From positions 62,001-126,000 of the forward strand of contig NZ_CAACVB010000001.1 in NCBI RefSeq assembly GCF_900659635.1: a DNA stretch of 64,000 nucleotides, written 5' to 3'. The notes beneath the pieces were generated by a model. That model saw only the letters and a program-made list of their open reading frames with translations. It was not told the origin of the DNA and searched no databases. Positions 1,306 to 55,614 of the stretch are shown one piece after another. The first letter of the stretch is position 1, and each line of letters opens with the position of its first letter. Source of the DNA: Actinomadura roseirufa (GTDB taxonomy: Bacteria; Actinomycetota; Actinomycetes; Streptosporangiales; Streptosporangiaceae). The position numbers and the translations under genes were made by a program.

Positions 1306-1349
1306 GGTGTTCTCCTCATCCGGTGAGTTCGCGGCCTGTCGGGCATGAA

Positions 1350-1376
1350 GACACCGCGAGGCCCACGAATGTGACA
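1350..1376 (-). promoter_or_regulatory. ECF41-type self-regulated promoter
   Basis: On the minus strand TGTCACA (1370-1376) is followed after exactly 16 bases by TGTC (1350-1353), about 45 bases before the CMD start codon. The published ECF41 consensus is TGTCACA-N16-CGTC, so only one base differs. Position and strand fit autoregulation of the CMD-sigma operon. Confidence 0.7.
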
Positions 1377-2209
1377 GCCTCTGCCGTCCACTGGTGAACG
1401 CCGCTGATTTCCGGGACCGGTGGAGGCCCGCCCGGGAAGGTCGAACTCTCTGGACGCAGAGTTCGAGGTCTCCATCAATCAGGCCGCTCTGTGAGATTGG
1501 TCTCGGTGATTTCACCGTGGCGCCGGAGGCGTGGGGGAACGGCAGATGCCCGGCGACGACGGGTGCACGAGCCGGCAGAACCCGCTTCGGTCACACAGCG
1601 ATCAATATGGCATCGGACCGTGTTCTCTCGCCGTTCGTTCATCTGTCGCGGAAAGGGGACGGTCGGGAACGGCCCGAGATTTCATCTCAGTCCGCTGCAT
1701 GGCGGACAGAACGGTTGAGATCGACACGAACCGGCATGCGACGGCATGGAAGCCGTGGTCGTGCAGGGGCCTTCCATAGGAAACCCTTCGCGGTCGAAAC
1801 GGTGTCCGAAGGGTCGCCGCCGTCCGTAACGCCGCCGCGAACTCGAGCCAGAGCACCCCCTTGGCCTCGCGAGCCTCACCGTGATCTTGACTCCCCGTCG
1901 CCGGCTCATCAAATGTTGATGAATTCTCAAGTTCAGGGCCTCTGGGCGGTCGTGCCGGTGCCGGGGCCTCCGTGTCCGTTTAAGTGTTTTCCGTCCGTTG
2001 TAACGCTTCTCGCCTTACATGGGAGCAAAGGATGCTTTCGCGGCTTAGGCCACAAGTGCCCGGTGGGCCCTGCATCGATACGATCTTCCAGTTCGTTTAC
2101 GGGCGCCTGGAACGATGGTTCCGGCGGGCCGGTGGGCCCCTGGACGACGGACGCGTCGAAATGACCCCGGTCGCGTGCGCCCATGCCGAACCCGCGCCGC
2201 CCTTTTGCC
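1377..2209. other. Gene-free interval
   Basis: About 0.8 kb between the divergent sigma-factor operon and the isonitrile cluster. It is noticeably less GC-rich than the flanking genes, and open frames on both strands lack GC3 bias, good ribosome binding sites or recognisable domains. I see no RNA gene or mobile element here; it may hold decayed sequence. Confidence 0.5.
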
Positions 2210-2239
2210 TTGACATTCCCGCGTAGGCTCAGTTTTGAT
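2210..2239 (+). promoter_or_regulatory. Candidate -35/-10 promoter of the isonitrile cluster
   Basis: TTGACA (2210-2215) and TTTGAT (2234-2239) are separated by 18 bases in an AT-richer stretch about 150 bases before the first biosynthetic gene. The -35 box is perfect and the -10 box matches 4 of 6 consensus bases. The implied leader is long, so this is only a candidate. Confidence 0.35.
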
Positions 2240-2392
2240 GGCGAACAGTTAAGTTTGACCACTGTTTCCGAGCGCCGATGTTCTTTGGTCGGCGTCGCCG
2301 TTTCGTGATTGGCGTCCGGTATTCGGCCGGTCGCTCCATGAAGTGATTACTGAGAATGTCCGCGAGTGTACGCGCGGTGGAATGGGGGGACG

Positions 2393-3484
2393 ATGGACGA
2401 CGCCCCGGGGAGCGCCCCGCCGGTGAGCATCGCGCCGCGTGCGGGCCGCACGGCCGTGCTGTGCGGCGTAAGCGGCCATGTGCCCGCTCCGGTACTGACC
2501 AACGAGGAACTGACCAGCCGGTTCGACACGTCCGATGATTGGATCGTGACACGGATCGGCATCCGTGAGCGTCACATCGTCGAGCCCGGCTCGGCGACCT
2601 CCGATCTCGCCGCGCGCGCCGGCGCGGCGGCGCTGGCGTCGGCGGGCGTGTCGGCGGTGGACATGCTGGTGCTCGCCACGACGACCCCCGATCATCCGTG
2701 CCCGGCCACCGCGCCGGCGGTCGCGCACCGGCTCGGTCTCGGCGGCATTCCCGCGCTCGACGTGAACGCCGTCTGCTCGGGGTTCGTCTACGGCCTGGCC
2801 ACATCCGCCGGGCTGATCGCGTCCGGGCTGGCGCGCAGCGTCCTGCTGATCGGAGCCGACACGTTCAGCACGCTGCTGGACCCCGGCGACCGCGACACCG
2901 TGACCGTGTTCGGGGACGGCGCGGGCGCGGTCGTCCTGCGCGCCGGGGACATCGGCGAGCCGGGCGCGGTCCTGGCGTTCGACCTCGGCAGCGACGGCGA
3001 GCTGGCCGACCTGATCACGGTCCCGGCGGGCGGCTCGCGCGCTCCGCTGCGGCCCGGGACGCCGGTGCCCGGCGACGCGCACTTCACCATGCAGGGCCGG
3101 GCCGTCTACCGGCACGCCGTCCGCCGGATGACGGAGTCGTCGCTGGCCGTGCTCGGCGAGGCGGGATGGAAGCCCGAGGACGTCGGCCGGTTCGTCGGGC
3201 ACCAGGCCAACCTGCGCATTCTCACCACCGTGGCCGAAGAGCTCGGGATCGGCGCCGACCGCGTGTACGCGAACGTGGACCGGGTCGGCAACACCGCCGC
3301 CGCGTCGATCCCGCTGGCCCTCGCGGACGCCGCGGACGCCGGGCTGCTGCGGGCCGGCGACAGGGTGCTGCTGACGGCGTTCGGCGGGGGCGCGACCTGG
3401 GGTTCGTGCGCGCTGGTGTGGCCCGAGCCGCCGCTCTCCGCGGCGGCCGGAGCCCCGGGGGCCGAGGCGTCCTCGACCCGGTAG
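2393..3484 (+). CDS. 3-oxoacyl-ACP synthase III (FabH/KAS III-like)
   Basis: 363 residues from ATG 2393, preceded by a G-rich Shine-Dalgarno stretch; an in-frame GTG at 2366 would add 9 residues. The thiolase-fold KAS III triad is complete: Cys128 in NAVCSGF, His270 in GHQAN and Asn300 in VGNTAAAS, with the TTTPDHPCP and GDGAGAVVL landmarks of the family. FabH enzymes condense an acyl-CoA starter with malonyl-ACP; cluster-associated KAS III proteins may instead transfer acyl groups. It opens the isonitrile operon, 35 bases before the ACP gene. The characterised scoA-E and Rv0097-Rv0101 sets work without a KAS III, so here it may supply a dedicated short acyl chain or acylate the product. That role is inferred. 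Confidence 0.92.
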
Positions 3485-3519
3485 CGACACGGTCCGCAAC
3501 GCCAACGAGGGAGCGGGAC

Positions 3520-3780
3520 TTGGACAGGGAACACACGCACGCCGTCATCACCAAGCTGATCCACCGCGAGGTCCCGGAGCTGACCGGCGACCTCACGCCG
3601 GCGGACGGCTTCGAGACGCTCGGCATCGACTCGATGACCATGATCGACGTGATCGTGGCCACGGAGCGGGAGCTCGGCGTGAAGATCGCCGACAACCGGC
3701 TCGCGGACGTCGCCACGGTCGGGGACCTCGTGGACGTCGTCCTCACCATTTCCAACGCACGGCAGGGAGACGAATCATGA
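3520..3780 (+). CDS. Acyl carrier protein (ScoB/Rv0100-type)
   Basis: 86 residues from a TTG start at 3520, chosen because GAGGGAG sits 7 bases upstream and no ATG or GTG gives a sensible N-terminus. The phosphopantetheine attachment motif LGIDSMT has Ser38, and length and helix pattern are typical of a discrete ACP. In isonitrile lipopeptide biosynthesis the homologous ACP carries the alpha,beta-unsaturated acyl chain loaded by the FadD10-like ligase and, later, the beta-isonitrile acyl group passed to the NRPS. Its TGA overlaps the next ATG (ATGA), showing translational coupling to the iron oxidase. Role is by family and context. Confidence 0.9.
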
Positions 3781-4664
3781 CCATTCAGACGCACACCGGC
3801 AGCCGCATCGGCACCACGGTCGAAGGGTTCGACCCGGTCAACGCGTCCGCGGACGAGATCGAGGAACTGCGGCGCACCGTCTACGAGAAGAAGATCGTCG
3901 TACTGCGCGGGCAGGACCTCGACCCGAAGGGGCTGCTGGCGCTCGGCCGCCGGTTCGGCCGCACGGAGGCCTACTACCAGCCGATGTACCGCCACCCCGA
4001 CGTCCACGAGGTCTTCGTGTCCTCCAACGTCGACGAGGACGGCCGGCAGATCGGCGTCCCGAAGACCGGAAAGTTCTGGCACTCGGACTACCAGTTCATG
4101 CCGGCCCCGTTCGACATCACGTTCATCTACCCGCGGGTGCTGCCCGAGCGCAACCGCGGCACCTACTTCATCGACATGGCGCAGGCGTACGAGCAGCTCA
4201 GCGACGAGCTGAAGGAGGCGGCCCACGACACCCGCGCGCTGCACAGCGTGCGCCGCTACTTCAAGATCCGCCCCTCCGACGTCTACCGGCCGCTGTCGGA
4301 GGTCTCGGCCGAGGTGGACGCCGAGACGCCGCCCAGCGTCCACCCGACCGTCATCGACCACCGGTTCACCGGGGAGAAGATCCTCTACATCAGTGAGGGC
4401 TTCACGCACGGCATCCAGGACGCCGACGGCCGGGAGCGTCCCGACCTGCTGAACGCGCTGCTGGAGGCGAGCGGGCAGCTCGACACCACGTTCCAGCACC
4501 CGAACATCCACCTGCAGACCTTCGAGAAGGGCGACCTGCTGGTCTGGGACAACCGGACCCTCGCCCACCGTGCGCTGCACACCACGACCCCCGAGCCCGC
4601 CGTGTCGCACCGCGTCACCGTCTACGACGAGACGGTGCGCGACTCGATGCTCAACGGCGAGTAG
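3777..4664 (+). CDS. Fe(II)/2-oxoglutarate-dependent isonitrile-forming oxidase (ScoE/Rv0097-like)
   Basis: 295 residues, TauD/TfdA fold. The iron triad is His102 and Asp104 (FWHSDYQ) and His264 (LAHRALH), with a C-terminal Arg in SHRVTVYD for 2-oxoglutarate. The Tyr-rich N-terminal stretch [17 protein letters not shown] and Lys in [12 protein letters not shown] match the substrate pocket of ScoE. ScoE converts an N-carboxymethyl-beta-amino acid (the glycine adduct of an enoyl chain) to the beta-isonitrile acid by two oxidative rounds with decarboxylation. Being flanked by the ACP, FcoT thioesterase and FadD10-like genes makes isonitrile formation far more likely than taurine or 2,4-D oxidation. 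Start overlaps the ACP stop. Confidence 0.93.
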
Positions 4665-4673
4665 GGGGCCGGC

Positions 4674-5216
4674 ATGGAAACGGCCACCGCCCTCTCGGCG
4701 GGCACCGAGCACGACAGCGAGCACGGCCACGAGCACGGGAACGACGCGCCGCTGCTGGCCGATGTCCTGCGCTGCTACAAACCGCACTGCCGGTACCTGG
4801 GCTCGATGACGGTGCGCGGCACCGGTGACCGGCTCACCGGCCGCGGTGAGCTGAGCATTCCCGAGTCCTGCTATATCGACGACACCGGCCATCTCAACGC
4901 GGTCGAGGTCAACATCTGTTACAACCAGATGCTCTACTACGTGATCGCCAAGGCCGTCGACGCGAAGCTCGTTCCGGCGTTCGCGCAGTGGACGATGGAC
5001 GACTACTGGGCGAAACAACTCCCTGAGATTCTCATCGCCCGGATGCAGTGCTCGTTCGTGCGTCCCATCGACGCCCGGCATTTCTACGGCGAGTTCGAAT
5101 TGCTGCGGAGCACGCGGTTGAGGGGTCTGCTGTCGCTGGAGACCGCCTTCCGCTACTGGGACGACGCGGACGGCCGGTGCGACGGCCGCGTCCGCGTCGC
5201 GATCACCAACGCCTAA
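4674..5216 (+). CDS. FcoT/ScoD-type long-chain acyl thioesterase (hotdog fold)
   Basis: 180 residues. The core from about residue 27 contains VLRCYKPHCRYLGS, ESCYIDDTGHLNAVEVNICYNQM and VRPIDARHFYGEFEL, diagnostic of the FcoT family (Rv0098). In isonitrile biosynthesis this family adds glycine to the beta-carbon of an enoyl-ACP and releases the N-carboxymethyl-3-aminoacyl acid. The first 26 residues are unusual: an acidic, His-rich tail (EHDSEHGHEHGND) absent from the family core that could bind metal. It lies 9 bases after the oxidase and 66 bases before the ligase. Assignment to the family is strong; the glycine-adding step is inferred from the cluster. Confidence 0.92.
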   Translation: METATALSAGTEHDSEHGHEHGNDAPLLADVLRCYKPHCRYLGSMTVRGTGDRLTGRGELSIPESCYIDDTGHLNAVEVNICYNQMLYYVIAKAVDAKLVPAFAQWTMDDYWAKQLPEILIARMQCSFVRPIDARHFYGEFELLRSTRLRGLLSLETAFRYWDDADGRCDGRVRVAITNA

Positions 5217-5282
5217 CGCCCGAGGGCGGGCGGACCGCCGACGCGCCGGTCCGCCCGCCCACCCGCGCACCAAGGAGATGCG

Positions 5283-6845
5283 GTGTACCACCCGCAGTTG
5301 CAGACCCTCGCCGCGACCGTGCGGTTCCACGCCGAGCACCAGCCCGATACGGCCGCCGTCGTGTGCGCGGACCGGCGGCTGACCTACGCGGAGTTGTACC
5401 GGGGCGCGCAACAGGTCGCCCGCGCGCTCCGCGCCGGCGGCCTCGCCCGGGGGGCGCGGGTCGCGTTCCTCGGCCAGGAGTCCGTCCACTACTACGAGAC
5501 GCTGTTCGGCTGCGCGCTCGCCGAGGCGGTGCTGGTGCCGATCAACTGGCGGCTCGCCGCCGGCGAGGTGGGGCACATCCTCGCCGACTCCGCCAGCGAG
5601 CTGCTGTTCGTGGACGCCGACCTGCTGAAACTGGCGGACAACGCCCGGTCGACGATGTCCGGGCCCGCCACCGTCGTCGTCCTGGACGGCGACGACTACC
5701 ACCGCTGGCGCGCCGCCGGGAACGACGACGGCCCGCCGCCCCACCCTGCCACCGGTCCGGACGACCCGATCGTCCAGCTCTACACCAGCGGGACGACCGG
5801 CCTGCCGAAGGGCGTCGTCCTCGCCCAGCGCAGCTTCTTCGCGATCAGGGACGCGCTGGCCTCGGCGGGACTCGACTGGATCGACTGGCGGCCCGGGGAC
5901 CGCAGCCTCATCGGCATCCCCGGCCTGCACGTCGGCGGCCTCTGGTGGGCCGTCCAGGGTTTCAACGCGGGCGTCACCAACGTCGCCATGCCGAGGTTCG
6001 ACAGCCGCGCGGCGGTGGAGCTGATCCGCGACCTCGGCGTCACCACCGCGTGCGTGGTGCCGTCGATGCTGCGGCTGATCCTCGCCGAGCCGCACGCCGC
6101 GCCGGCGGACTTCGCCACCCTCCGCAAGGTCGTCTACGGCGGGTCGCCGATCTCCGAGACGCTGCTGACCGAGGCGGTGAAGGGCCTCGGTTGCGAGTTC
6201 GCGCAGATCTACGGGCTTACGGAGACCGGGAACACCGCGGTGTGCCTGCCGCCGTCCGACCACGTGCCGGGCGGCCCGCGCATGCGCGCGGCGGGCCGTC
6301 CCTACCCCGGCGTCGAGGCGAAGATCATCGACCGGTCCGGCGCGCCCGTGCCGGCGGGAACGGTCGGCGAGGTGTGCCTGCGCAGCCCGGCCAACATGCT
6401 CGAGTACTGGCGGCGGCCGGAGGCCACCGCCGAGACGCTCGTCGACGGCTGGATCCACACGGGTGACGCCGGTTACCTGGACGAGGACGGCTACGTCCAC
6501 ATCCACGACCGGATCAAGGACATGATCATCGTCGCGGGAGAGAACATCTACCCCGCCGAGATCGAGCACGTCCTCGCCAAGCACGCCGCCGTCGCGGACG
6601 CCGCCGTCATCGGCGTGCCCGACGACCGCTTCGGCGAGGCCGTCCACGCGTTCGTGGCGCTGCGGGCCGGGCACGAGGCGGGCCCGCGCGACCTGCTGGA
6701 GTTCCTGCGCGACCGGATCGCCGCTTTCAAGATCCCGAGCCGGTTCGTGTTCGTCGACCAGGTGCCCCGCAATCCCAGCGGCAAGATCCTTCGGCGCGAG
6801 CTGCGCGACGAGCAGTGGCGCGGCCGGGAACGCAAGGTCAACTGA
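5283..6845 (+). CDS. Acyl-AMP ligase / fatty acyl-ACP ligase (FadD10/ScoC-like)
   Basis: 520 residues. GTG 5283 is used because AAGGAG lies 6 bases upstream and the nearby ATG is out of frame. ANL superfamily landmarks are present: P-loop [23 protein letters not shown], the adenylate-binding [16 protein letters not shown], hinge [18 protein letters not shown] and the C-terminal [11 protein letters not shown] lysine. In this pathway the FadD10-like enzyme activates the fatty acid and loads the stand-alone ACP, then reloads the isonitrile acid. It has the full two-subdomain length. Stop lies 14 bases before the NRPS start. A CoA ligase role cannot be excluded from sequence, but the cluster argues for ACP. 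Confidence 0.92.
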
Positions 6846-6859
6846 CGCGGAGGCCGATC

Positions 6860-9800
6860 ATGACACTGGACACACGCAGCCTCCGCCGGGACATCGGCGA
6901 GCTGCTCTACCTCGGCCCGGACGAGATCGAGGCCGACGCCGACCTGTTCGCGCTCGGCCTGGACTCGGTCCGGCTGCTCTCCCTGCTGGAACAGTGGCGG
7001 GAGGAGGGCGCGGACGTCAGCCTGGTCGAGCTGGCCGAGCGGCCCACGCTCGCCGCCTGGGAGGGCCTGCTGCTGGCACCGTCCGGCGGCCGCGCCTCGG
7101 CGGGGCCGGCCGCCGCTTCGAGCGGGCGGCTGGCGCTCACCGAGGCTCAGCTCGGCATCTGGACCGGGCAGCGTCTCGATCCCGCGAACCCGGCCTACAA
7201 CACCGCCGAGTACGCCGACATCGCCGGACCGGTCGACGCCGAGATGTTCGAGGCGGCGCTGCGCCGCGCGGTGCGGGAGACCGAGGCGCTGAACGTCCGG
7301 TTCGCCGAGGACGAGAACGGCGACCCCCGGATGGAGCCCGCCGAACACCACTGGACGCTGCACGTCGCCGACCTGTCCGCCGAATCCGATCCGCACGCCG
7401 CGGCGCTGCGGTGGATGCACGACGACATCGCCCGTCCGGTCGACCTCGCCGCCGAGCCGCCGTTCGGCCAGGCGCTGTTCCGCCTCGCGCCGGACCGTTT
7501 CCTGTGGTACCAGCGCGTCCACCACATCGCGCTGGACGGCTTCGGGCTGTCCCTCGTCGCACGGCGGGTGGCCGACGTCTACACCGCGCTGGCCTCGGGC
7601 AGTGACCCGGGCGAGCCCGGCTTCGGGCCGCTGAGCGCGGTGGTCGAGGAGGACGCCGCCTACCAGGCGTCGCCGGAGCGCGAACAGGACCGTGCCCACT
7701 GGCTCGCCCGGTCGGCCGGCCGGACCGAGCCCGCGGCGCTCAGCGGACGCTTCGCCCGGCCCTCCGCGACGTTCCTGCGCGAGATCTTCGACGTGGACGC
7801 CGGCACCGCCGAGAACCTGCGCGCCGTGGCGCGGCGGTGCGCGGCGACCTGGCCGGACGTCGTCATCGCGGCGTGCGCGGCCTACATCGGCCGGCTGACC
7901 GGCGCGGCCGAACCCGTCCTCGGCGTGCCGGTGATGGGACGCCTCGGCTCGGCGTCGCTGCGGGTGCCGAGCATGGTGCTCAACATCGTCGCGCTGCGGC
8001 AGCCGGTGGACCCGGCGGCGGGTCTCGCCGCTCTCACCGGCGCGGTCGCCGACCGGATGCGCGCGGACCGGCCCCACCACCGCTACCGCTACGAGCACCT
8101 GCGGCAGGAGCTCGGGCTGAGCGGCGAGCGCGGCGCGCTGTACGGGCCCGCCGTCAACATCATGCCCTTCGACTACGACCTCTCCTTCGCGGGAGGCCGC
8201 GCCGAGGTCCGCAACGTCTCGGCCGGCCCGGTCGAGGACGTGTCGATCAACGTCTACGACCGCGCGGACGGCAACGGCCTGCGCATCGCCCTGGACGCGA
8301 ACCCCGCGTGCCTCGACCAGGCCGGGCTGGCCGCGCACGGACGGCGGCTGCGGCGTTTCCTCGCCACCGCCACGGCCGAGCCGGACCGCCCGATCCGCGA
8401 CCTGGACCTGCTCTTCGAGGACGAGCGCCGCGCGCTCCTGGGCACCTGGAACGACACCGCGCGGGACCTGCCGCCCGAGCCGGTGACGCGCGTGTTCGAG
8501 CGGCAGGCCGCTCGCACCCCGCAAGCCTCGGCGCTCCTGTGCGGCGACGGCGCGTCCACCGCCGAGCTGTCCTACGCCGAGCTGAACGCGCGCGCCAACC
8601 GGCTCGCGCGGTACCTCATCGCCCGGGGCGCGGGACCCGAGCGCCGCGTCGCGCTGCTCCTGCCCCGGTCCGCCGACCTGGTCGTGGCGCTGCTGGCCGT
8701 GCTGAAGTCCGGCGCCGCGTACGTGCCGCTGGATCCCGGGCTGCCCGCGCAACGGCTCGACTGGATGCTCGGCGACGTCCGCCCCGCGCTCGTGCTGACG
8801 GACGAACCCGGCCCGGCGGACGCGGCGAACCGGGTGGCGCTCGCCGACCCGGCGGTGCGCGCGGCCGTCGAGGGCGAGGCGTCGCACGATGTGACCGACG
8901 ACGACCGATCCGCGCCGCTGCGGCCCGCGCATCCCGCCTGCCTCATCTACACCTCGGGGTCCACCGGCCGTCCGAAGGGCGTGGTCACCGAACACCGGGG
9001 CGTGGCCAACCTGTACCTGCACCACCGCGCGGGGATGATCTCCGAGGCGGACGGCACCCGGTTCCGCGCCGCGCTCACCGCCCCGCTGTCGTTCGACACC
9101 TCCTGGGAGGGGCTGCTGTGGATGTTCGCCGGGCACGAGCTGCACCTCGTCCCGGACGACGTGCGCCGCGACGCCGAGGCGATGGTGCGGTTCGCGGGCG
9201 AGCGGCGCATCGACTTCCTCGACATCACCCCGTCCTATGCCGAGGAGCTGCTGGCCTGCGGGCTGCTCGACCCGGACCGCCCGCACCGGCCCAGCGTGAT
9301 CGCGCTCGGCGGTGAGGCGGCGGGGCCGCTGCTGTGGACACGGCTGCGCGACACCGCCGGCGTCACCGCCTACAACCTCTACGGACCCACCGAGGGCACC
9401 GTCGACACGCTCAGCTGCCTCCTGTCCGACAGCGCCACCCCGATCGTCGGCCGCCCGCTCGGCAACACGCGCGCCTACGTCCTGGACGCCTCGCTGCGTC
9501 CGCTGCCGCCCGGCGCGACCGGCGAGCTGTACCTGGCCGGGGTCCCCCTGGCCCGCGGCTACCACGATCGGGCCGCGCTGACCGCCGCGCGCTTCGTCGC
9601 CGACCCCTACGGACCCGCCGGCACGCGGATGTACCGGACGGGCGACCTGGCCCGATGGCGCCCGGACGGCACGCTCGACTACCTCGGCCGTTCCGACGAC
9701 CAGGTGCAACTGCGCGGCTTCCGCATCGAGTACGGCGAGATCGAGGCGACGCTGGCGCAGCACCCGGCCGTCGACCGGGCCGCCGCCCTCGTCCGCGAGG

Positions 9801-11464
9801 ACGCGCCGGGCGTGCGGCGCCTCGCCGTCTACGTCGTCACCACGGACGGCGCGGACGCCGACCCGGCCGAGCTGCGCTCCTTCCTCGCCGACCGGCTCCC
9901 CGCCCACATGGTGCCGACCGCGTACCTGACGCTGGCGAAGCTGCCGACGAACCGCAACGGCAAGCTCGACCGCACCGCGCTGCCCGTCCCGCCCGACCTG
10001 GCGGGCGGCGGCCGCGCACCGCGCGACCACCTCGAACGCGAGCTGTGCGCGCTGTTCGCCGCCGCGCTCGGGCTCGCCGACGTCGGCGTCGACGACGACT
10101 TCTTCGAGATGGGCGGGCACTCGCTGCTCATCACCCGGCTGGTGCCGCGCATCCGGCAGCGGCTCGGCGTCGAGATGCGGGCCGGCCTGATGTTCGAGCG
10201 CGCCACCGTCGCGCGGCTCGCGGAGGCGCTGCGCGACGGGTCGTCCGGCGACGCGCCGCCCGACCTCGCCGCCGAGGCCGTGCTGGACCCCGGCATCCGC
10301 GCCCCCGCCGGGACGGCGGCCCGCGGTCCCGTGCGCCGGATCCTGCTCACCGGGGCCACCGGCTTCCTCGGCGCGTTCCTCCTGCGGGAGCTTCTCGAAC
10401 GGACCGACGCGCAGGTGTGGTGTCACGTCCGGGCCCCCGGCGAGCGGGAGGCCCGCGACCGCGTCCACGACGCGCTGGCCCGCCACGGGTTGCGGCACTC
10501 CGCGCTGGACGACCGGATCGCCGTGCTGCCCGGCGACCTGGAACGGCCACTGCTCGGTGTCGGCGAGGCCACGTTCGACCGGCTCGCCGAGGACATCGAC
10601 CTCATCGTCCACAACGGCGCGATGGTGAACCACATCGCCCCCTACGCCCGGCTGCGGGCCGCGAACGTGCTCGGCACCCAGGACGTCCTGCGCCTCGCGG
10701 CGACGACCCGGGTGAAACCGGTCCACTACGTATCGACCTGCGACGTGGCCGTCAGCGCGCGGGCCAATCCCGCCCTGCTCTCGGAGGACCGGCTGGCCCC
10801 GGCCGGCGAGGTCCTGCCGAACGGCTACGTGGAGAGCAAGTGGGTGGCCGAACAGCTGGTCCGGGCCGCGCGGGAACGAGGCGTTCCCACCACGGTCCAC
10901 CGCCCGAGCCGGATCAGCGGCGACACCGCCACCGGCGCCGGCGCGACCGACGACGCCTTCTGGACGATGGTGCGCGCCTCGATCATGCTCGGCGCCGTGC
11001 CCGACACCCTCGACGGCGACACCGTCGACCTCGTGCCCGTCGACTATGTGGCCGCCGCGATCGTCCGGCTGGCGACGCGTCCCGGCGCACCCGCCGCCTA
11101 CCATCTGACCAGCCCGGAACCGCTGCGCGCCGGGACCGTCGTGGAACGGCTGAGACGGTTCGGCTACACCCTGGCCCCCATGCCGCCCGCCGCGTGGCGG
11201 CGCGCGCTCGCCGAGCACGCCGACGGCGAGGCCGGCACGCGGGCCGACGGCGACCCGCTCGCCGTCGCGGCCATGCTCGGCGAGGAGTCCGAGGCGCTGC
11301 CCGGCGGCTTCGCCTTCGCCCGCGACAACGAGCGGCGGGACCTGCGGGACACTCCGGTCCAGTGCCCGCCCATCGACGGCGAGCTCCTCGACCGGTACGT
11401 CCGCGCGTTCGTCGAGACGGGCTTCTTCCCGGCTCCCCGCGGTGGCGCGAGCGTGCCGCGATGA
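6860..11464 (+). CDS. Nonribosomal peptide synthetase, T-C-A-T-R (ScoA-type, reductive release)
   Basis: 1534 residues; ATG 6860 has GCGGAGG upstream. Domain order: an N-terminal carrier domain (LGLDSVRLL, Ser36), condensation (HHIALDG, residues 221-227), adenylation (about 546-1035; A3 [11 protein letters not shown] near 695; [17 protein letters not shown]), a second carrier (GGHSLL, Ser1088) and a thioester reductase from about 1159 ([13 protein letters not shown]1323-K1327 in GYVESKW). Read against the GrsA positions, the specificity residues are D-T-E-D-I-L-L-V-D-K. Three acidic side chains in the pocket suggest a basic amino acid such as Lys or Orn, as in known isonitrile lipopeptides. 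The R domain would release an aldehyde or alcohol. The extra N-terminal carrier is discussed in the findings. The stop overlaps the MFS start. Confidence 0.95.
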
Positions 11465-12726
11465 CCGACGTCAGGAGCGACGGCTCGCCCGGCACCGCCA
11501 CCGGCGGCGCGTCCCCGGTCGGTCCGCTGCGCGCGTGGACGATCATCATCGCCCTCTCCGTCGGCTCCTTCCTGTTCGTCACCATCGAGACCCTGCCCAT
11601 CGGACTGCTGTCGGACCTCGCGTCGGACCTCTCGGTGTCCGACAGCGCGGTGGGACAGCTCGTCACGGTGTACGCGTTGTGCGTCATGCTCGCCGCCCTC
11701 CCGCTCACCGTGGCGTTCTCCCGGTTTCCGCGCCGGGCCCTGCTCGTCGGCGTGTTCGGGGTGTTCGTCGCCGCCACGGCGACGTCCGCGCTGGCCCGCG
11801 ACTACGCCGTCCTGCTCGCGGTCCGCGCCGTCATCGCGATGGCGCAGGCGCTCTTCTGGTCGGTGGCGGTGTCGCTGGCCGGGACGCTCGCGCCGCGCGG
11901 CCGCACCGGCAGGGCGATCGCGCTCGTCTACGCGGGCATCTCCTTCGCCCAGCTCCTCGGCGTCCCCGGCGGCGTCGCGCTCGGGCACTGGCTCGGCTGG
12001 CGGTGGGCGATGGGGACGCTGGCGCTGGCGGGGCTGCCCGTCCTGCTCGTGCTCGCGGCGGCCATGCCGTCCGTCCACGGGCACGCGCCGATCCGCGCGC
12101 GCGAGGTCGCCGCGCTGCTCGGCCGGCGGCGGGTGCGCGTCACCATGGCGGCCATCACCGTGGCCTTCACCGGAACCTATGTCGCGTTCACCTACATCAG
12201 CCCGCTGCTCCAGAGGGTCGGCCACGTCTCGGCGGGCATGATCTCGGTGTACATGCTGCTGTTCGGGGCGGCCGGCGTCGCGGGCAACGCGCTGGCCGGC
12301 GGGCTCGTGGACAGCAGACCGCGGACGACCGTGGTCGCCGCCATCGGCGGGATCTTCGCGGTCGTCGTGACGTTCGCGTCGCTGGGCGGCTGGACGCCGG
12401 TGACCGTCCTCGCCGTCGTGGCGTGGGGCCTGTGCGGATCGGCCCTGCCGACCGTGTTCACCGCTTGGGCGCTCCGCGTGGCGCCCGATGACCAGGAAAC
12501 GGCCATGTCGCTCCTGGTCATCGCGGTGAACTTCGGCCTCGGCGCCGGCGCGCTCCTCGGCGGCCGCCTCCTGGACGGCGTCGGCCCCCACGCCGTGGCC
12601 TGGGGCGCCGCCGTCCTGCTCGGCATGGCTCTGCCCACGGCCGTGTCCGCTTTGAGGACGACGACGGTTACGGCAAAGGAGGTCGCCCGCGCAAACCCGT
12701 CCGGGCACGATTCCCATCGTGCTTGA
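11461..12726 (+). CDS. MFS transporter (DHA1 drug/metabolite exporter type)
   Basis: 421 residues with about 12 hydrophobic segments starting at residue 27; no signal peptide. The pattern ([31 protein letters not shown] near the first loop, a motif-A-like basic loop [10 protein letters not shown], then [21 protein letters not shown]) is typical of AraJ/CmlR-like DHA1 proton-driven exporters. Its ATG overlaps the NRPS stop, so it is the last gene of the cluster and most likely exports the isonitrile product or confers self-resistance. If the compound is a copper-binding diisonitrile, the partner importer of the metal complex is not visible in this window. Confidence 0.9.
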
Positions 12727-12738
12727 GGACGGCGGCCA

Positions 12739-12879
12739 TCACGGGCACGGGCGGTACACGCCGACGGAAACGGAGCACGACGTCGTTCTGGGCGTGTGCT
12801 CCGCGGTGGACGACCACCACGGTCCACCCGATCGTCTGCGGGAGGCGTTGACCACATGGTCGAGTTCGATGGACGTCAT
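12739..12879 (-). CDS. Small ORF with very strong ribosome binding site, possibly frameshifted
   Basis: 46 residues (MTSIELDHVV...). AAGGAGGAGG (12885-12894) sits 5 bases before the ATG and directly after the stop of the ABC permease, so translation looks intended. From about 12845 another minus-strand frame becomes strongly GC3-biased and runs on to 12668 (QTIGWTVVVVHRGAHAQND...), overlapping the end of the MFS gene. This could mean a frameshift in a longer small gene. No family recognised. Confidence 0.35.
   Translation of the reverse strand: MTSIELDHVVNASRRRSGGPWWSSTAEHTPRTTSCSVSVGVYRPCP
12805..12828. terminator. Inverted repeat between convergent operons
   Basis: GGTGGAC (12805-12811) and GTCCACC (12822-12828) form a 7-bp stem with a 10-base loop between the end of the MFS gene (12726) and the end of the ABC permease (12895). 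Placement suggests a bidirectional terminator; there is no T-tract, and it overlaps the small ORF. Confidence 0.35.
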
Positions 12880-12894
12880 GGCGTCCTCCTCCTT

Positions 12895-13734
12895 TCACCC
12901 GTGCAGGGTGCTCGAGAAGCCCTTCATGACCGACCGCTGGGCGAACGCGAACAGCGCCAGCACCGGGGCCGCCGCGAGCAGCGCGGCGGCGAAGATCAGC
13001 GGCCATTCGGCCGTGAAGCGGCCGACGAACGAGTAGACGGCCACCGGAAGCGTGGCCTTGTCGGTGTCACCGGTGAACACGAGGGCGACGAAGAAGTCGT
13101 TCCACACGAACAGCCCGGTCAGCGTGGCGACGACCCCCGTGGCGGGTCGCATCAGCGGGAACACGATCTGGACGAAGACGCGGAGCGGCCGAGCGCCGTC
13201 CACCCGCGCGGCCTCCTCGTACGCCGTCGGCATGCCGCGGAAGTATCCGGTGTACAGGAAGACCGCCAACGGCATCTCCAGACCCAGGTAGACGAGGATC
13301 AGCCCGACGCGCGTGCCGGTGAGGCCCGCCTCCACCATGACGGCGTAGAGCGGGATCATCCCGATCTGGATCGGCATGATCAGCGCCAGCGTGAACAGCC
13401 CGAACACCACGGCGGACAGCCGCGACCCGCGCCGGGCCAGGACGTACCCGGCCGGCGCCGCGAGCACGACGAGCAGGAGCACGACGGCGCAGGTCGTCAG
13501 CACGCTGTTGAACAGGGCCTGCGAGAACGACTCGGTGCCGCCGCCCGCCTCGGTCCAGGCCCGCCGCATGTTGGAGAGCGTCGGCGCGGCCGGCGGCGCC
13601 AGCGTCGACCCCCCGGTCTCCGAGCGGTCCCGGAACGCCGTGGTGAGCACGAGATAGACGGGGGCGAGCATCGGCAGCGCGCCGATCCAGAGCCCGACCT
13701 CACGGAACGCCGTCCAGCGGCCGTACCCGTTCAT
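12895..13734 (-). CDS. Carbohydrate ABC transporter permease (MalG-like, CUT1)
   Basis: 279 residues from ATG 13734, which overlaps the stop of the other permease (ATGA). Six predicted membrane segments; the cytoplasmic EAA loop is EEAARVDGARPLRVFVQIVFPLMRPA, the binding site for an MsiK/MalK-type ATPase. Together with the neighbouring permease and lipoprotein it makes an importer for oligosaccharides or glycosides. No ATPase gene lies in this operon, as is common for actinobacterial CUT1 systems that share MsiK. The downstream position of GH78 in the same transcript suggests a rhamnose-containing substrate. Confidence 0.93.
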   Translation of the reverse strand: MNGYGRWTAFREVGLWIGALPMLAPVYLVLTTAFRDRSETGGSTLAPPAAPTLSNMRRAWTEAGGGTESFSQALFNSVLTTCAVVLLLVVLAAPAGYVLARRGSRLSAVVFGLFTLALIMPIQIGMIPLYAVMVEAGLTGTRVGLILVYLGLEMPLAVFLYTGYFRGMPTAYEEAARVDGARPLRVFVQIVFPLMRPATGVVATLTGLFVWNDFFVALVFTGDTDKATLPVAVYSFVGRFTAEWPLIFAAALLAAAPVLALFAFAQRSVMKGFSSTLHG

Positions 13735-48403: not shown

Positions 48404-50083
48404 ATGAGTGCGGGGAAGCGGCCTCCGGTCGAGGCCGCACGCGGACGGCGGTTGCGCTGCCGCGGCTGGCGGCAGGAGGGCCTGCTGCGAATGCTCGAGA
48501 ACACCCTGGAGAACGGCGAACGGCCCGAGGACCTGATCATTTACGCGGCCACCGGCAAGGCCGCCCGCGACTGGGACAGCTACGCGGCGATCGTCGAGGC
48601 GCTGACCGACCTGCGCGACGACGAGACGCTCGTCGTGCAGTCCGGCAAGCCGGTGGCCCGCTTCGCCACCTCCGCGGCCGCCCCGCGCGTGGTGGTCGCG
48701 AACACCAACCTGGTCGGCCAGTACGCCACCTGGGACACCTTCTACGACTTGCAGAAGCGCGGCCTGATCTCCTACGGCCAGTACACCGCCGGCGCCTGGC
48801 AGTACATCGGGCAGCAGGGCGTCGTGCAGACCACCTACGAGACGTTCGCCGCCGCGGCCCGGACGCACTTCGACGGCTCCCTGCGCGGGAGGTTCGTCGT
48901 GTCGGCGGGCCTGGGCGGGATGGGCGGCGCCCAGCCGCTGGCGATGAAGCTGCACGGCGCGGTCGCGGTCATCGTCGAGGTGGACGAGGCCAAGGCCGAC
49001 CGCCGTCTCGCGTCCGGCTACCTGGACGTGAAGGCGCACTCGGTCGCCGAGGCGATGGCGGCGGCGGAACGGGCCCTGGCCGATCGCTCGGCGCTGTCGG
49101 TCGGGCTCATCGCCAACGCCGCCGACGCGCTCCCCGAGATCGTCGCCGCCCGGTGCCCGGACCTGGTGACCGACCAGACCTCCGCGCACGACATGCGCGA
49201 CGGCTACGTCGCCGCGGGCATGTCGCCGGAGGAGGCGCGCCGGATGCGCCGCGACGACCCCAACGGGTACGAGCTCCGCGCGCTGGACACGGTGCGCCGC
49301 CACGTCGAGGCCATGGTCGCCGCGCAGGACGCCGGGGCCGTGGTGTTCGAGTACGGCAACGCGATCCGCTACCAGGCGGCCCGCGCGGGCTACCGGCGAG
49401 CCAACGACTTCGACGGTTTCGTCAAGAAGTACATTCGCCCGAACTTCTGCGTAGGCAAGGGACCGTGCCGCTGGGTAGCGCTGTCCGGCGACGAGAACGA
49501 CATCCGGCTCATCGACGAGGCGATCCTGGAGCGGTTCGCCGGCGACCCGTCGATCACCGGCTGGATCGCGGTCGCCATGAGCTCCATCCCGCACCAGGGC
49601 CTCCCGGCGCGCAGCTCGTGGTTCGGCTACGGCCAGCGCCTGGAGTTCGGGCTGATGGTCAACGACATGGTCCGCGACGGCGTCCTGGCCGGACCGGTCG
49701 CGATGTCGCGCGACCACCTCGACAGCGGGGCGGTGGCCCAGCCCACCCGCGAGACCGAGGGGATGCTCGACGGCAGCGACGCCGTGGCGGACTGGCCGAT
49801 CCTCAACGCCCTGCTCAACGCCTCGGGCGGCGCGGACCTGGTGGCGGTGCACCAGGGCGCGGGCAGCGGCATGGGCGGATCCATCTCCGCCGGCGTGACG
49901 CTGGTCATCGACGGCACCGCGGAGTGCCGGGCGAAGCTGGAGCGGGTGCTGCGCACCGACCCGGGCATCGGCGTGATCCGCCATGCCGACGCCGGATACC
50001 CCGAGGCGATCGCGGTGGCCGAGGACAGCGACCTCGTCGTGCCGCGGGTCGGCGGCGGGGCCACCGGGCCCCCGCGGCGGTGA
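48404..50083 (+). CDS. Urocanase-family protein with altered active site (HutU paralogue)
   Basis: 559 residues, full urocanase length; conserved blocks include QYTAGAWQYIGQQGVVQTTYETF, LVTDQTSAHDMRDGY, KYIRPNFCVGKGPCRWVALSGDENDI, GRDHLDSG-like SRDHLDSGAV, RETEGMLDGSDAVADWPILNALLN and GVIRHADAGY. Three sites deviate from canonical HutU: the YGGTGKAARNW block reads YAATGKAARDW (Y47), YGNNIR reads YGNAIR, and GLPARICW, which holds the catalytic Cys (Cys410 in the Pseudomonas putida enzyme), reads GLPARSSW with Ser405. The NAD-dependent hydratase fold is kept, but an ordinary urocanate reaction is doubtful. No histidine ammonia-lyase is nearby. A modified urocanate (for example thio- or methyl-urocanate) is a reasonable hypothesis. 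Confidence 0.9.
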   Translation: MSAGKRPPVEAARGRRLRCRGWRQEGLLRMLENTLENGERPEDLIIYAATGKAARDWDSYAAIVEALTDLRDDETLVVQSGKPVARFATSAAAPRVVVANTNLVGQYATWDTFYDLQKRGLISYGQYTAGAWQYIGQQGVVQTTYETFAAAARTHFDGSLRGRFVVSAGLGGMGGAQPLAMKLHGAVAVIVEVDEAKADRRLASGYLDVKAHSVAEAMAAAERALADRSALSVGLIANAADALPEIVAARCPDLVTDQTSAHDMRDGYVAAGMSPEEARRMRRDDPNGYELRALDTVRRHVEAMVAAQDAGAVVFEYGNAIRYQAARAGYRRANDFDGFVKKYIRPNFCVGKGPCRWVALSGDENDIRLIDEAILERFAGDPSITGWIAVAMSSIPHQGLPARSSWFGYGQRLEFGLMVNDMVRDGVLAGPVAMSRDHLDSGAVAQPTRETEGMLDGSDAVADWPILNALLNASGGADLVAVHQGAGSGMGGSISAGVTLVIDGTAECRAKLERVLRTDPGIGVIRHADAGYPEAIAVAEDSDLVVPRVGGGATGPPRR

Positions 50084-50162
50084 GGGCGGTGCGCACGGCG
50101 GGCCGGGCGGTCCGTCCCGCGACGAGATCGGGATCCGGCGGTTCCAGGGAGGCGAGGACAGG

Positions 50163-51335
50163 GTGGACGAGCAGGTAGCCGCGCTCGGCGGCATCAGGGT
50201 CCTCGACCTCGGGCGGGTGCTGTCGGGCCCCTTCTGCGGCCGGATCCTGGCCGACCTCGGCGCCGAGGTCATCAAGATCGAGTCCGCGGCCGGCGACGAC
50301 GGCCGGCACTTCGGGCCCTTCCACGAGGGCACCAGCAGCTACCACCGGCTCCTCAACCGGAACAAGTTCGGCATCACGCTGGACCTGAAGTCGGACGAGG
50401 GCCGCCGGACGCTGACCGCGCTCGTCCGGCGCTCCGACGTGCTCGTCGAGAACTTCCGGCCGGGGGTCATCGACCGGCTCGGCTTCTCCCCCGACCGGCT
50501 GCTGGAGATCAACCCCCGGCTGGTGGCGGTCAGCATCAGCGGCTTCGGCCGCACCGGGCCGCTGTCCGATCTGCCCGCCTACGACTTGATCGTCCAGGCG
50601 ATGTCGGGGCTGATGTCGGCGACCGGCCCGGACGGCGGTCCGGGGACGCGGATCGGCGTCAGCATCGGCGACATCGTGCCCGGCATGTACGCCGCGACCG
50701 CCGTGCTGGCGGCGCTGCACCAGCGGGAGAGGAGCGGGCGGGGCCAGCACGTCGACGTGGCGATGTTCGACGGGCTGCTGTCGGTCCTGGAGTCGGTCGC
50801 GATGCGCGCGCTGCTCACCGACGAGCCGATCGCGCCGACCGGGAGCCACCACGCGATCAGCGCGCCGTTCGGCACCTTCGCCACGCGCGACGAGCCGATC
50901 GCCATCGCGGTCGCGAACGACCCGCTGTTCGCCGCCCTCGCCTCGGCGCTCGGGCGTCCCGGGTGGACCGGCGACGCGCGGTTCCGCACCGACGCCGAAC
51001 GCGGGCGGCACCGCCACGAGCTGCGGACGGAGCTGGAGGCGGCGCTGGCCGGGTGGACCCGTGACGAAGCGATCGAGGTGCTGTCGGCGGCCGGTGTGCC
51101 GTGCGGGCCCGTGCTCGGCGTCCGCGAGTCCCTGGGCCACGCGCAGGCCGCCGCGCGCGGCATGGTGCGCACCGAGGCCGACGGCTTCCCGACGCTGGGC
51201 AACGGCTTCCGGATGGCCGGCTCACGCGAGGACACCATGATCGCGCCCGCCCTGGGACAGCACAACGACCTGGTCGCGGGCTGGGTGGGCGAGCCGGTCC
51301 GTACCGGGGGCCGAGGGGAGAACGACGATGTTTGA
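50163..51335 (+). CDS. CaiB/BaiF class III CoA-transferase
   Basis: 390 residues from GTG 50163 (MDEQVAALGG), with GGGAGGCGAGG upstream. Family landmarks: RVLDLGRVLSGPFCGRILADLGAEVIKIE at the N-terminus, the catalytic Asp in LPAYDLIVQAMSGLM, SGRGQHVDVAMFDGLLS and AAGVPCGPVLGVRE. These interlocked-dimer enzymes move CoA from one acyl-CoA to a carboxylate. Here it probably activates an acid produced by the ring-opening enzymes, feeding the overlapping acyl-CoA dehydrogenase gene (8-base overlap). Confidence 0.94.
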   Translation: MDEQVAALGGIRVLDLGRVLSGPFCGRILADLGAEVIKIESAAGDDGRHFGPFHEGTSSYHRLLNRNKFGITLDLKSDEGRRTLTALVRRSDVLVENFRPGVIDRLGFSPDRLLEINPRLVAVSISGFGRTGPLSDLPAYDLIVQAMSGLMSATGPDGGPGTRIGVSIGDIVPGMYAATAVLAALHQRERSGRGQHVDVAMFDGLLSVLESVAMRALLTDEPIAPTGSHHAISAPFGTFATRDEPIAIAVANDPLFAALASALGRPGWTGDARFRTDAERGRHRHELRTELEAALAGWTRDEAIEVLSAAGVPCGPVLGVRESLGHAQAAARGMVRTEADGFPTLGNGFRMAGSREDTMIAPALGQHNDLVAGWVGEPVRTGGRGENDDV

Positions 51336-52491
51336 CCTGCTCGACGACCAGAGGCGGGAGTTCCGCGACACCCTGCGGGAGTTCTGCGGCAAGGAGGTCA
51401 TGCCCGGCGCGGCGGCGCGCGACGCCGGGGCCGAGTACCCGGCCGGGCTGATCTCCCGGCTGGCCGACATGGGGCTCATGGGCATCACGATCCCCGAGGA
51501 GTACGGCGGCCTGGGCCTGGACATGACGACCCAGGTGCTCGCGATGGAGGAGATCGCCTACGCCGACGCGTCCCTGGGGTCGGTGTTCGCCGGCCACTAC
51601 CTCGGCATGGAGACGCTGCGCCAGTTCGGCTCGTCCGGGCAGCGCGAACGGTACCTGCCCGGCCTGGCCACCGGCGCCTTCCGGGTCTCCTTCGCCCTGA
51701 CCGAACCCGACGCCGGCTCGGACATCGGCCGCATCCGGACCCGCGCCGCCGCCGGGCCGGACGGCTGGACGCTGTCGGGGCGCAAGACCTTCATCAGCAA
51801 CGCCCGCGAGTCCGACGGGATGGTCGTGTTCGCGATGACCGACCCCGGCGCGGGAATCCGCGGCATCACCGCGTTCCTCGTCCCCACGGACGCGGAGGGC
51901 CTCGGCTTCTCCTCACCCATCGAGAAGCTGGGCATCCGCGGCGAGCACGCCTACGAGGTGTCCCTCGACGGCGTCCGGGTCGGGCACGGCGCGACGCTCG
52001 GCGAGCCCGGCGGGGGCGGGCGCATCGCGCTGGAGGTCCTCAACAGCGCCCGCATCGACGTGGCGGCGCTGGCCAACGGGGTCGCCATGCGCGCGCTGGA
52101 CCTCGCCACCGCGTACGCGTCGACGCGGGTCCAGTTCGGCGGGCCGCTCCGCGACCTCCAGGCGATCCAGGTGCTGCTCGCCGAGATCGACGCGCTGGTC
52201 CAGTCGGGACGCCTGCACGCCTACCACGCGGCGGCGCTGCGCGACCGGGACGAGGACGTACGGCGGGCCGGATCGCTCGCCAAGTACGTGGCGAGCGAGA
52301 ACTGCTTCCAGGCCGTCGACAGGGCACTGCAGATCCACGGCGGCTACGGCTACGTGAAGGAAAGCGAGATCGAGCGTCTCTACCGGGACTGCCGGATCTT
52401 CCGGATCTACGAGGGCACCTCCCAGATCCAGCTCCTCACCGTCGCGAAACTGCTGGCCCGGCTCCACGACAGGCACGGAACCGTGGTGTAG
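51328..52491 (+). CDS. Acyl-CoA dehydrogenase
   Basis: 387 residues, ATG overlapping the CoA-transferase end. FAD-dependent three-domain enzyme: ITIPEEYGGLGLD, SFALTEPDAGSDIGRIRTRA (FAD/substrate), RKTFISNA, QFGGPLRDLQAIQ, and the C-terminal QIHGGYGYVKESEIERLYRDCRIFRIYEGTSQIQ, where the Glu of IYEGTS is the catalytic base. Introduces an alpha,beta double bond into an acyl-CoA made by the neighbouring transferase. Chain-length specificity is not readable. A 200-base gap follows. Confidence 0.94.
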   Translation: MFDLLDDQRREFRDTLREFCGKEVMPGAAARDAGAEYPAGLISRLADMGLMGITIPEEYGGLGLDMTTQVLAMEEIAYADASLGSVFAGHYLGMETLRQFGSSGQRERYLPGLATGAFRVSFALTEPDAGSDIGRIRTRAAAGPDGWTLSGRKTFISNARESDGMVVFAMTDPGAGIRGITAFLVPTDAEGLGFSSPIEKLGIRGEHAYEVSLDGVRVGHGATLGEPGGGGRIALEVLNSARIDVAALANGVAMRALDLATAYASTRVQFGGPLRDLQAIQVLLAEIDALVQSGRLHAYHAAALRDRDEDVRRAGSLAKYVASENCFQAVDRALQIHGGYGYVKESEIERLYRDCRIFRIYEGTSQIQLLTVAKLLARLHDRHGTVV

Positions 52492-52693
52492 CCACGAGCC
52501 GCCCCCCGGTTCCGCCGTACGCGGGACACGGCCGGATCGACACCCCGACGACTCGACGAGACCACGACGGCCCGCGCGGCGCGCACGACGCGTCCGCGCC
52601 ATGGGCGACGCCCACCCCGGCGCGGGGACGCATCGCGCCCGGCGAGGGCACGACTCAATTCATGATCACCCATCGTCCCCTTCGGAGTTCGTG

Positions 52694-53704
52694 ATGGCAG
52701 AGACACTGAGAGAACCGGTGACCGGGCGGAGCGTGTGGACGGCGGCCGACATCGGCGGCGAGGACTCCTACGCGCGGAGGTTCACCGAGGACGACCTCCT
52801 GGAGTTCGACCGGGCCCTGGCCGGCGTCCGGGACACGCCGGCGCGGGAGCTGGCCAAGCGCGACTTCCCGCTGCCGGGCTTCGGCGACAAGGTCCGCGAC
52901 CTCGTCGAGGAGCTCGAACACGGCACCGGGTTCACGCTGCTGCGGGGCCTGCCGATCCACGACCGCTACAGCGTCGAGGAGGCCACCAAGATCTACTGGG
53001 CGATCGGCCTGCACATGGGCGAGCTGGTCCCGCAGAACCGCAGGGGCGAGCTGATCGGCCACATCCGGAACCTCGGCGCCAAGGGCCACAACGCGCGGGG
53101 GTACGCGACGGCCTCGGCCGCCGCGTTCCACACCGACCAGACCGACATCGTCGGGCTGATGTGCCTGAACCAGGCCCGCAGCGGGGGCATCAGCCTCGTC
53201 GCCAGCGCGATGACCGCCTACAACCTCGTCCTGGAAGAGCACCCGGAGTGGCTCGACGTCCTCTACAAGCGGTTCCCGACCGACTGGGTCAGCGAGGAGC
53301 CGCCCGGAAGCCCCGGCTGGTACTACTCACGGCTCTACTCCTACGTGGACGGCCTGCTGTCGGCGGCCTACCGCACCGGCCGGATCCTCAGCGCCACCCG
53401 GTTCCCGGACGTGCCGCGGCTCAGCGCGCGCGAGGTGGCGTGCCTCCTGTACCTCGACGAGCTGCCCACCCGGCCTGGGATCGCGCTGGACATGACGCTG
53501 GAGGTCGGCGACATCCAGTTCGTCAACAACTTCGTGACGGTGCACAGCCGGACCGGCTTCGTGGACGACCCCGACGACCCGTGGTTCCAGCGGCACCTGC
53601 TGCGGCTGTGGGTCAGCCGCCCCGACACCGGGCGCGTCGTGTGCCCCGAATACCACTACTGGCGCAGCGGCATCTCGCGCCTGGAGTGGGCGCGGTCCGC
53701 GTGA
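52694..53704 (+). CDS. TauD/TfdA-like Fe(II)/2-oxoglutarate dioxygenase, copy A
   Basis: 336 residues; ATG 52694 with CGGAG 8 bases upstream. Iron ligands His146 and Asp148 (FHTDQTD) and His284 (TVHSRTGF), with the 2-oxoglutarate Arg in LLRLWVSR. The family oxidises unactivated C-H bonds, often next to amino, carboxyl or sulfonate groups. Close in sequence to the gene directly downstream, suggesting a tandem duplication followed by divergence. Starts a new transcription segment after a 200-base gap. Substrate unknown; oxidation of a side chain before amidase or CoA steps is possible. Confidence 0.91.
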   Translation: MAETLREPVTGRSVWTAADIGGEDSYARRFTEDDLLEFDRALAGVRDTPARELAKRDFPLPGFGDKVRDLVEELEHGTGFTLLRGLPIHDRYSVEEATKIYWAIGLHMGELVPQNRRGELIGHIRNLGAKGHNARGYATASAAAFHTDQTDIVGLMCLNQARSGGISLVASAMTAYNLVLEEHPEWLDVLYKRFPTDWVSEEPPGSPGWYYSRLYSYVDGLLSAAYRTGRILSATRFPDVPRLSAREVACLLYLDELPTRPGIALDMTLEVGDIQFVNNFVTVHSRTGFVDDPDDPWFQRHLLRLWVSRPDTGRVVCPEYHYWRSGISRLEWARSA

Positions 53705-53735
53705 CCCCCGGCCCGACAGCGATCAGGAGTTCACT

Positions 53736-54719: not shown

Positions 54720-54735
54720 GCACCCCGGCGGCACC

Positions 54736-55476: not shown

Positions 55477-55614
55477 GGGCTCCTCCTCACGGTCGGCTCG
55501 CCCGGCCGATCGTACCGCCGGCCGGCGACTCCCGGCCGTGACCTGGAAGAACGTGACCGTGATCACCGCGACCACGGTCACCGCGGAACCCGCGAAGGAA
55601 GGGGCGACCCACCG

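Follow-up and report, generated by a model that had tools for sequence, protein, structure and literature searches.

A probable diisonitrile operon of Actinomadura roseirufa with a KAS III–ACP pair and a carrier-fused NRPS

What is made by the seven closely spaced plus-strand genes that fill positions 2393–12726 of a 64,000-nucleotide stretch of the 9.03 Mb Actinomadura roseirufa draft genome (G000:C1:62001-126000, the window below), and where would the acyl chain of the product come from? Open reading frames (ORFs) and family profiles describe one co-directional operon, in the order β-ketoacyl-acyl carrier protein synthase III (KAS III), stand-alone acyl carrier protein (ACP), ScoE-type oxidase, FcoT/ScoD thioesterase, acyl ligase, non-ribosomal peptide synthetase (NRPS) and major facilitator superfamily (MFS) exporter (Table 1), with 4-base overlaps at ACP/ScoE and NRPS/MFS and intergenic gaps of 9–66 bases elsewhere. 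An earlier note on this DNA had listed a co-directional ACP, ScoE-like oxidase, FcoT thioesterase and reductase-terminated NRPS, all of which the ORFs and profiles bear out, and had placed the genes in the isonitrile lipopeptide or diisonitrile NRPS class; it overlooked the KAS III, the first gene of the region (a full gene with its Cys-His-Asn triad intact), and the extra carrier domain at the NRPS N-terminus. We conclude that the operon very probably makes a diisonitrile (isonitrile lipopeptide). Its product would be related to known copper-binding compounds of bacteria. The operon differs from known relatives in the carrier fused onto the NRPS, and it includes its own KAS III, the putative starter enzyme of acyl chain synthesis.

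The oxidase scores 460 bits against the curated ScoE equivalog NF049937 (cut-off 400), with the next family at 115, and its best match in the Protein Data Bank (PDB) is ScoE (6dch). All 14 active-site residues checked in a five-sequence alignment are invariant with ScoE (Y66, Y67, Y71, H102, D104, R127, K163, R165, D168, R171, E179, H264, H268 and R279 in the window; by count Y96, Y97, Y101, H132, D134, R157, K193, R195, D198, R201, E209, H295, H299 and R310 in ScoE), including the substrate residues Y96, Y97, Y101, K193, R195 and R310 (ScoE numbering) and what we take to be the metal triad. The oxidase accordingly stays within the ScoE/Rv0097 group. Roles for most of these ScoE residues are described in PMC7949033 (this and the other papers given by PMC number are cited from portions of their text). 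A ScoE tree with a TauD outgroup was unusable for rooting, and nothing is drawn from its root, because the outgroup branch, of length 10, is too long.

The thioesterase matches PF10862 with 192 bits (cut-off 27), and in a 94-row FcoT tree it falls among isonitrile-NRPS clusters, in an 11-row clade (support 96, starred) from Actinomadura, Pseudonocardiaceae and Nocardia; the neighbouring clade is a 58-row, mostly Streptomyces set (95, starred), and the joint 69-row set has a support of 94 (not starred). One score weighs against this assignment: against the NCBIfam ScoD equivalog NF049938 the protein reaches 225.5 bits, below the cut-off of 250. Six FcoTs of Actinomadura genomes without ScoE (L019-L021, L023-L025) form a separate clade (98, starred) and perhaps belong to β-amino-acid macrolactam clusters of the CmiS1/SAV606 type, whose cremimycin-type thioesterases share the FcoT family and the glycine addition (PMC11284099). 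The “FadD10-type ligase” of the earlier note is an acyl ligase (PF00501), although that label is loose, as it scores 278.6 bits against a FadD10 equivalog cut-off of 726; by similarity it belongs with the ligases of Streptomyces clusters and is not a FadD10 in the strict sense.

Comparison with other isonitrile clusters drew on a ScoE scan, from which the best 80 of 156 named loci were taken; with L022 and the window itself (L027) this gives 82 loci, 61 of them NRPS-type clusters, i.e. ScoE, FcoT, ligase and NRPS together. The gene order of the window matches dozens of the named loci and so agrees with the class proposed earlier. Two loci, L056 and L086, have a KAS III and miss the score rule for NRPS-type clusters (L056 has a 1515-residue ORF in the NRPS position, and L086 runs to the contig end). 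A supposed group of ScoE clusters without FcoT (L031, L033, L034) was dropped, since each of these genomes has one FcoT with an adjoining ligase. The three loci hold ScoE, a carrier and an NRPS with CopA and importer genes around them, the FcoT and ligase lying outside the 20 kb fetched; the L031 NRPS terminates in a thioesterase domain. Two other Actinomadura genomes (L022 and L026) carry the same seven genes in the same order at 55–85% identity (ACP 48–74%), their KAS III being 83% and 70% identical, respectively, to that of the window. This conserved order, with ScoE present in 3 of the 65 Actinomadura genomes, argues that the operon is more than a chance arrangement.

The operon resembles the Streptomyces diisonitrile clusters (SF2768, S. 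thioluteus; scoA-E, S. coeruleorubidus) in its ScoE, FcoT/ScoD, ligase, carrier and condensation-adenylation-thiolation-reductase (C-A-T-R) NRPS, and most of the relatives compared, a set that excludes the S. thioluteus and S. coeruleorubidus clusters themselves, also have KAS III-ACP upstream of ScoE. It departs from the Streptomyces clusters in its NRPS-fused carrier, its adenylation pocket and its dissimilar MFS protein, and in having no importer or CopA adjacent. The mycobacterial Rv0096-Rv0101 nrp cluster likewise combines oxidase, FcoT, ligase, carrier and NRPS; against five loci (f4/g71) taken for mycobacterial, identities are 43–46% for ScoE and 33–36% for both FcoT and ligase, and no KAS III match was found there. 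The mycobacterial nrp product has very long acyl chains (PMC9600254), unlike the short chain proposed here. Amycomicin-type loci, for which L077 and L083 were chosen as examples from their species name, are marked by ScoE and FcoT with no ligase or NRPS nearby; the window has both.

The operon has two carriers. Of the 61 NRPS-type clusters, 60 were checked for a second carrier between ligase and NRPS and all 60 have it; in L042, which was left out of that check, it was seen by eye. It shares an uninterrupted frame with the NRPS in just three loci, each from Actinomadura (the window, L022 and L030, the last from A. formosensis NBRC 14204); in the other 57 it is separate. In M. tuberculosis, Rv0100 sits between FadD10 and nrp (PMC11161019). 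By position and in-frame fusion, the ScoB/Rv0100 equivalent is the NRPS N-terminus, and the free ACP belongs with KAS III; the earlier note, correct that an ACP is present, did not see this pairing. In the draft sequence of L042 (L042:2592-4553, S. murinus), the second carrier stands in one open frame with the ligase, possibly through an error.

The chemistry proposed for FcoT, ScoE and the ligase, carrier and NRPS is that of published relatives; for the role of KAS III, the chain length, the amino acid and the copper function, we infer from the genes. KAS III would join an acyl-CoA, probably acetyl-CoA, to malonyl on the stand-alone ACP, and FabG and FabZ of primary metabolism would convert the product to an enoyl-ACP. 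FcoT would then add glycine and free the N-carboxymethyl-β-amino acid, in line with FcoT-type enzymes, in which glycine is added to an enoyl thioester before hydrolysis (PMC11284099). ScoE would oxidize and decarboxylate this intermediate to a β-isocyano acid, which the ligase would load onto the NRPS-fused carrier; in published work with the Streptomyces enzymes, 3-((carboxymethyl)amino)butanoic acid (CABA) was treated with ScoE, and ScoA, ScoB, ScoC, lysine, ATP and NADPH were added afterwards (PMC7949033). The C domain is expected to acylate both amino groups of a diamino acid on the T domain (ornithine slightly over lysine), the R domain to release an aldehyde or alcohol, and the MFS protein to export the product.

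Does the KAS III feed this route? In 54 of the 61 NRPS-type clusters it lies shortly ahead of ScoE, and all 61 rows for KAS IIIs that neighbor ScoE keep the Cys-His-Asn triad (60 genes, the window being entered twice). Its best PDB match is 2x3e, which we take to be P. aeruginosa PA3333. A KAS III with a neighboring ACP is also found as FabH2-Acp3 in the P. aeruginosa aze NRPS cluster, whose product is unrelated (PMC9040856, PMC6158461). The simplest reading is a starter cassette in which KAS III and ACP build the chain for FcoT and ScoE, and we regard this starter role as somewhat favored. No paper joining KAS III to diisonitrile biosynthesis was found among the matches listed in a literature search judged by title and the start of the abstract, most subscription papers being outside its scope; joint mentions of KAS III and isonitriles concern FabH as a target (PMC13273461, PMC11290450).

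Several observations weigh against the starter role. KAS III is missing from seven clusters and is therefore not essential to the pathway. On a ScoE+FcoT+ligase tree of 60 of the 61 clusters (53 with and seven without KAS III; L058 was left out), the seven absences are seven separate changes, six of them forced by starred branches; shuffling gives a mean of 6.8 changes, matching the observed scatter, so that the count shows only scattered absences, and the tree cannot separate loss from gain. The KAS IIIs that neighbor ScoE do not resolve into a single clade, there being two changes with the host paralogues L012 and L014 at the base, and no FabG or FabZ lies within the cluster. A cysteine occupies the position that we take to align with E. 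coli FabH Phe87 in 60 of the 61 KAS III rows, and it might let longer acyl-CoAs in. There are also KAS III-with-carrier pairs elsewhere in genomes whose cluster lacks one: five of the seven genomes with a KAS III-less cluster hold other KAS IIIs at E <= 1e-60, and carrier-like stretches of 50 and 41 bits lie beside or near those of L161 and L162, respectively, which makes it a real possibility that another KAS III-ACP pair supplies the chain in trans; such pairs may substitute where the cluster has none. That these genes are relocated cluster KAS IIIs was rejected for the two of five looked at, as L161 groups with L012, an extra-cluster paralogue (70%), and L162 stands on a long branch; that the clusters themselves lack the gene still holds. 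In favor of a KAS III-ACP pair, five of the seven KAS III-less clusters have no detected ACP and L074 has a weak one; L059 does have an ACP, and there a 56-residue KAS III remnant persists between MFS and ACP (L059:9419-9742) and favors loss, apparently under way. Another KAS III of the A. roseirufa genome, 48% identical, lies outside the window, some 29 kb upstream of the operon, next to an NRPS-like stretch with adenylation and carrier domains (G000:C1:32318-35267; L028:4319-7268).

An improbable alternative gives the KAS III a part in self-resistance, as a tolerant copy of FabH kept by the producer because isonitriles can hit FabH. Amycomicin inhibits FabH, B. subtilis fabHB raised amycomicin resistance (PMC13273461), a synthetic isocyanide destabilizes FabH (PMC11290450), and with its triad intact the copy could replace FabH. 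However, the KAS III has its own ACP and is usually absent together with it, no KAS III match lies within 10 kb at L077 and L083, the ScoE loci of S. virginiae type, and SF2768 is described as acting through copper chelation (PMC11290450).

KAS III, ACP, ScoE and FcoT also occur together without a detected NRPS in four loci of Saccharopolyspora and Streptomyces (L085:8452-12397, L091:8592-11411, L094:8537-12416 and L100:8608-12235). By Pfam, a type II thioesterase and a modular polyketide synthase (PKS) gene adjoin the cassette in L094 and L100; in L085 and L091 the neighbor is an ORF of PKS size, with weak carrier hits in L085, which also has a type II thioesterase, and one weak carrier hit in L091. 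These four are candidate isonitrile polyketide clusters. The cassette thus appears to travel between clusters of the NRPS and PKS kinds, a point of use in genome mining.

Which diamino acid would the NRPS use? Pocket codes, obtained for 62 loci, are of two kinds: 13 loci (Actinomadura, Pseudonocardiaceae, Nocardia and three L031-type loci) have DTEDAGLVD or DTEDAGLID, and 49 loci of Streptomyces and kin have a D[A/T]ED[I/V]GTVV-like code, position 239 being E or W depending on gap placement. No A motif was found in the mycobacterial-type loci when the pocket codes were read. Lysine is used by MxcG, which the window NRPS resembles, below the cut-off of that model. The window pocket has D235 and D278 in common with all Streptomyces-type pockets and T236 with part of them, and a lineage variant of the lysine pocket, giving an ordinary lysine-cored SF2768-type diisonitrile, is a serious possibility that falls somewhat short of even. 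Yet positions 299, 322 and 331 differ consistently between the 13 and the 49 loci, and the signature DVGEIGSIDK, which other authors assign to ornithine, likewise carries Asp at position 331 (PMC3992020). We therefore lean, very slightly and weakly, to ornithine, a preference close to balanced. The Streptomyces products are lysine-cored, and the M. tuberculosis product and SF2369 are ornithine-cored (PMC9600254).

SF2369 comes from Actinomadura (PMC9600254, PMC11641416) and so shares genus and product class with the operon; the literature text consulted gives no gene cluster for it, and a term search of the available text of the Actinomadura metabolite review PMC10951976 returned no mention of isonitrile, isocyan, SF2369/SF-2369, copper or metallophore. 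With a pocket unlike the lysine-type one of Streptomyces and a weak fit to ornithine, the operon is a candidate for the SF2369 gene cluster, a speculative and rather unlikely assignment. The fuller picture is tentative and on the doubtful side: KAS III-ACP would be a detachable module for de novo enoyl-ACP starters, marking short-chain, self-supplied clusters as opposed to those using imported or recycled fatty acids; the Actinomadura carriers would be split by job, the free ACP serving chain making and glycine addition and the NRPS-fused one isonitrile delivery; and the operon would be the SF2369 cluster. If true, an orphan Actinomadura antibiotic would gain a gene cluster, a source would be suggested for the short unsaturated acyl chain found in copper metallophores of the Streptomyces type, and a compact carrier-fused NRPS would be available for making diisonitriles.

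The metal binding of the product and its export by the MFS protein, both proposed by the earlier note, are predictions. Among 56 long loci, a periplasmic binding protein (PBP) is present in 54, FecCD in 53 and CopA in 40; L022 has all three and L030 an importer. Weighing against a copper role, none of the three lies beside the window cluster. The only PBP match of the host, with FecCD and ATPase, is on contig C385 and, over the aligned parts, shares 70–73% identity with the set of L022, and a CopA homologue (57%) is on contig C40. That the importer is confined to cluster-bearing genomes was rejected: PBP (at least 65%, near full length) occurs in 19 of 65 Actinomadura genomes, three of three with ScoE and 16 of 62 without (fragments in G017 uncounted), and the family is therefore not tied to this product. 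Cluster-type PBP importers of ScoE-less Actinomadura (L148-L157 and further loci) possibly serve for metallophores of other strains. With the importer separated from the cluster, the product in this strain may be an antibiotic or signal and not serve copper acquisition, a reading that we hold possible and the less probable one. CopA, too, is away from the cluster, the exporter is unlike those of other clusters (among the 82 loci and the window, it was matched at E 1e-10 only in the three Actinomadura clusters), and SF2369 is described as an antibiotic (PMC9600254) and antifungal (PMC11641416); the PBP-FecCD-ATPase set on contig C385, so similar to that of L022, speaks for copper acquisition. 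From these gene sets a copper role is plausible, the two sides being about evenly matched.

Table 1. Genes and NRPS domains of the predicted diisonitrile operon (window positions)
Feature	Position	Strand	Basis
KAS III (FabH-like ketosynthase)	2393..3484	+	TIGR00747 323 bits, cut-off 292; Cys128/His270/Asn300 intact
Stand-alone ACP, paired with KAS III, TTG start	3520..3780	+	PF00550; profile of cluster ACPs
ScoE-type Fe(II)/2-oxoglutarate oxidase/decarboxylase (predicted isonitrile former)	3777..4664	+	NF049937 460 bits; PDB 6dch; active-site residues
FcoT/ScoD-type thioesterase (predicted glycine addition to enoyl thioester)	4674..5216	+	PF10862; PDB 5wsx E 6e-52; tree
ScoC-type acyl ligase	5283..6845	+	PF00501/PF13193; 59–85% to ligases of the other 60 NRPS-type clusters
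NRPS, carrier-C-A-T-R	6860..11464	+	Domain profiles
N-terminal carrier domain fused to NRPS (ScoB/Rv0100 equivalent)	6881..7078	+	One of two PF00550 stretches in NRPS
Condensation domain, HHIALDG motif	7127..8440	+	PF00668; motif seen in sequence
Adenylation domain, pocket DT(E or W)DAGLVD	8495..9964	+	Domain profile, pocket reading
Carrier (T) domain	10040..10231	+	PF00550
Thioester reductase domain, GATGFLG + YxxxK	10340..11425	+	TIGR01746 325 bits, cut-off 213; motifs seen in sequence
MFS exporter (predicted)	11461..12726	+	PF07690

The genes 5′ of the operon point the opposite way, and sugar ABC-transporter-like genes, read from ORFs and translations, follow 3′ on the minus strand. No convincing conserved motif was found upstream of the three Actinomadura operons, nor was a sigma-70-like promoter in 1320-13000; the single terminator-like site in that interval lies upstream of the operon, and shuffled sequence gives a mean of 2.0. 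Further along the window (49983-57311), adjacent TauD-family genes (52601-53704 and 53736-54719) occur with CoA-transferase III, acyl-CoA dehydrogenase and amidase genes.

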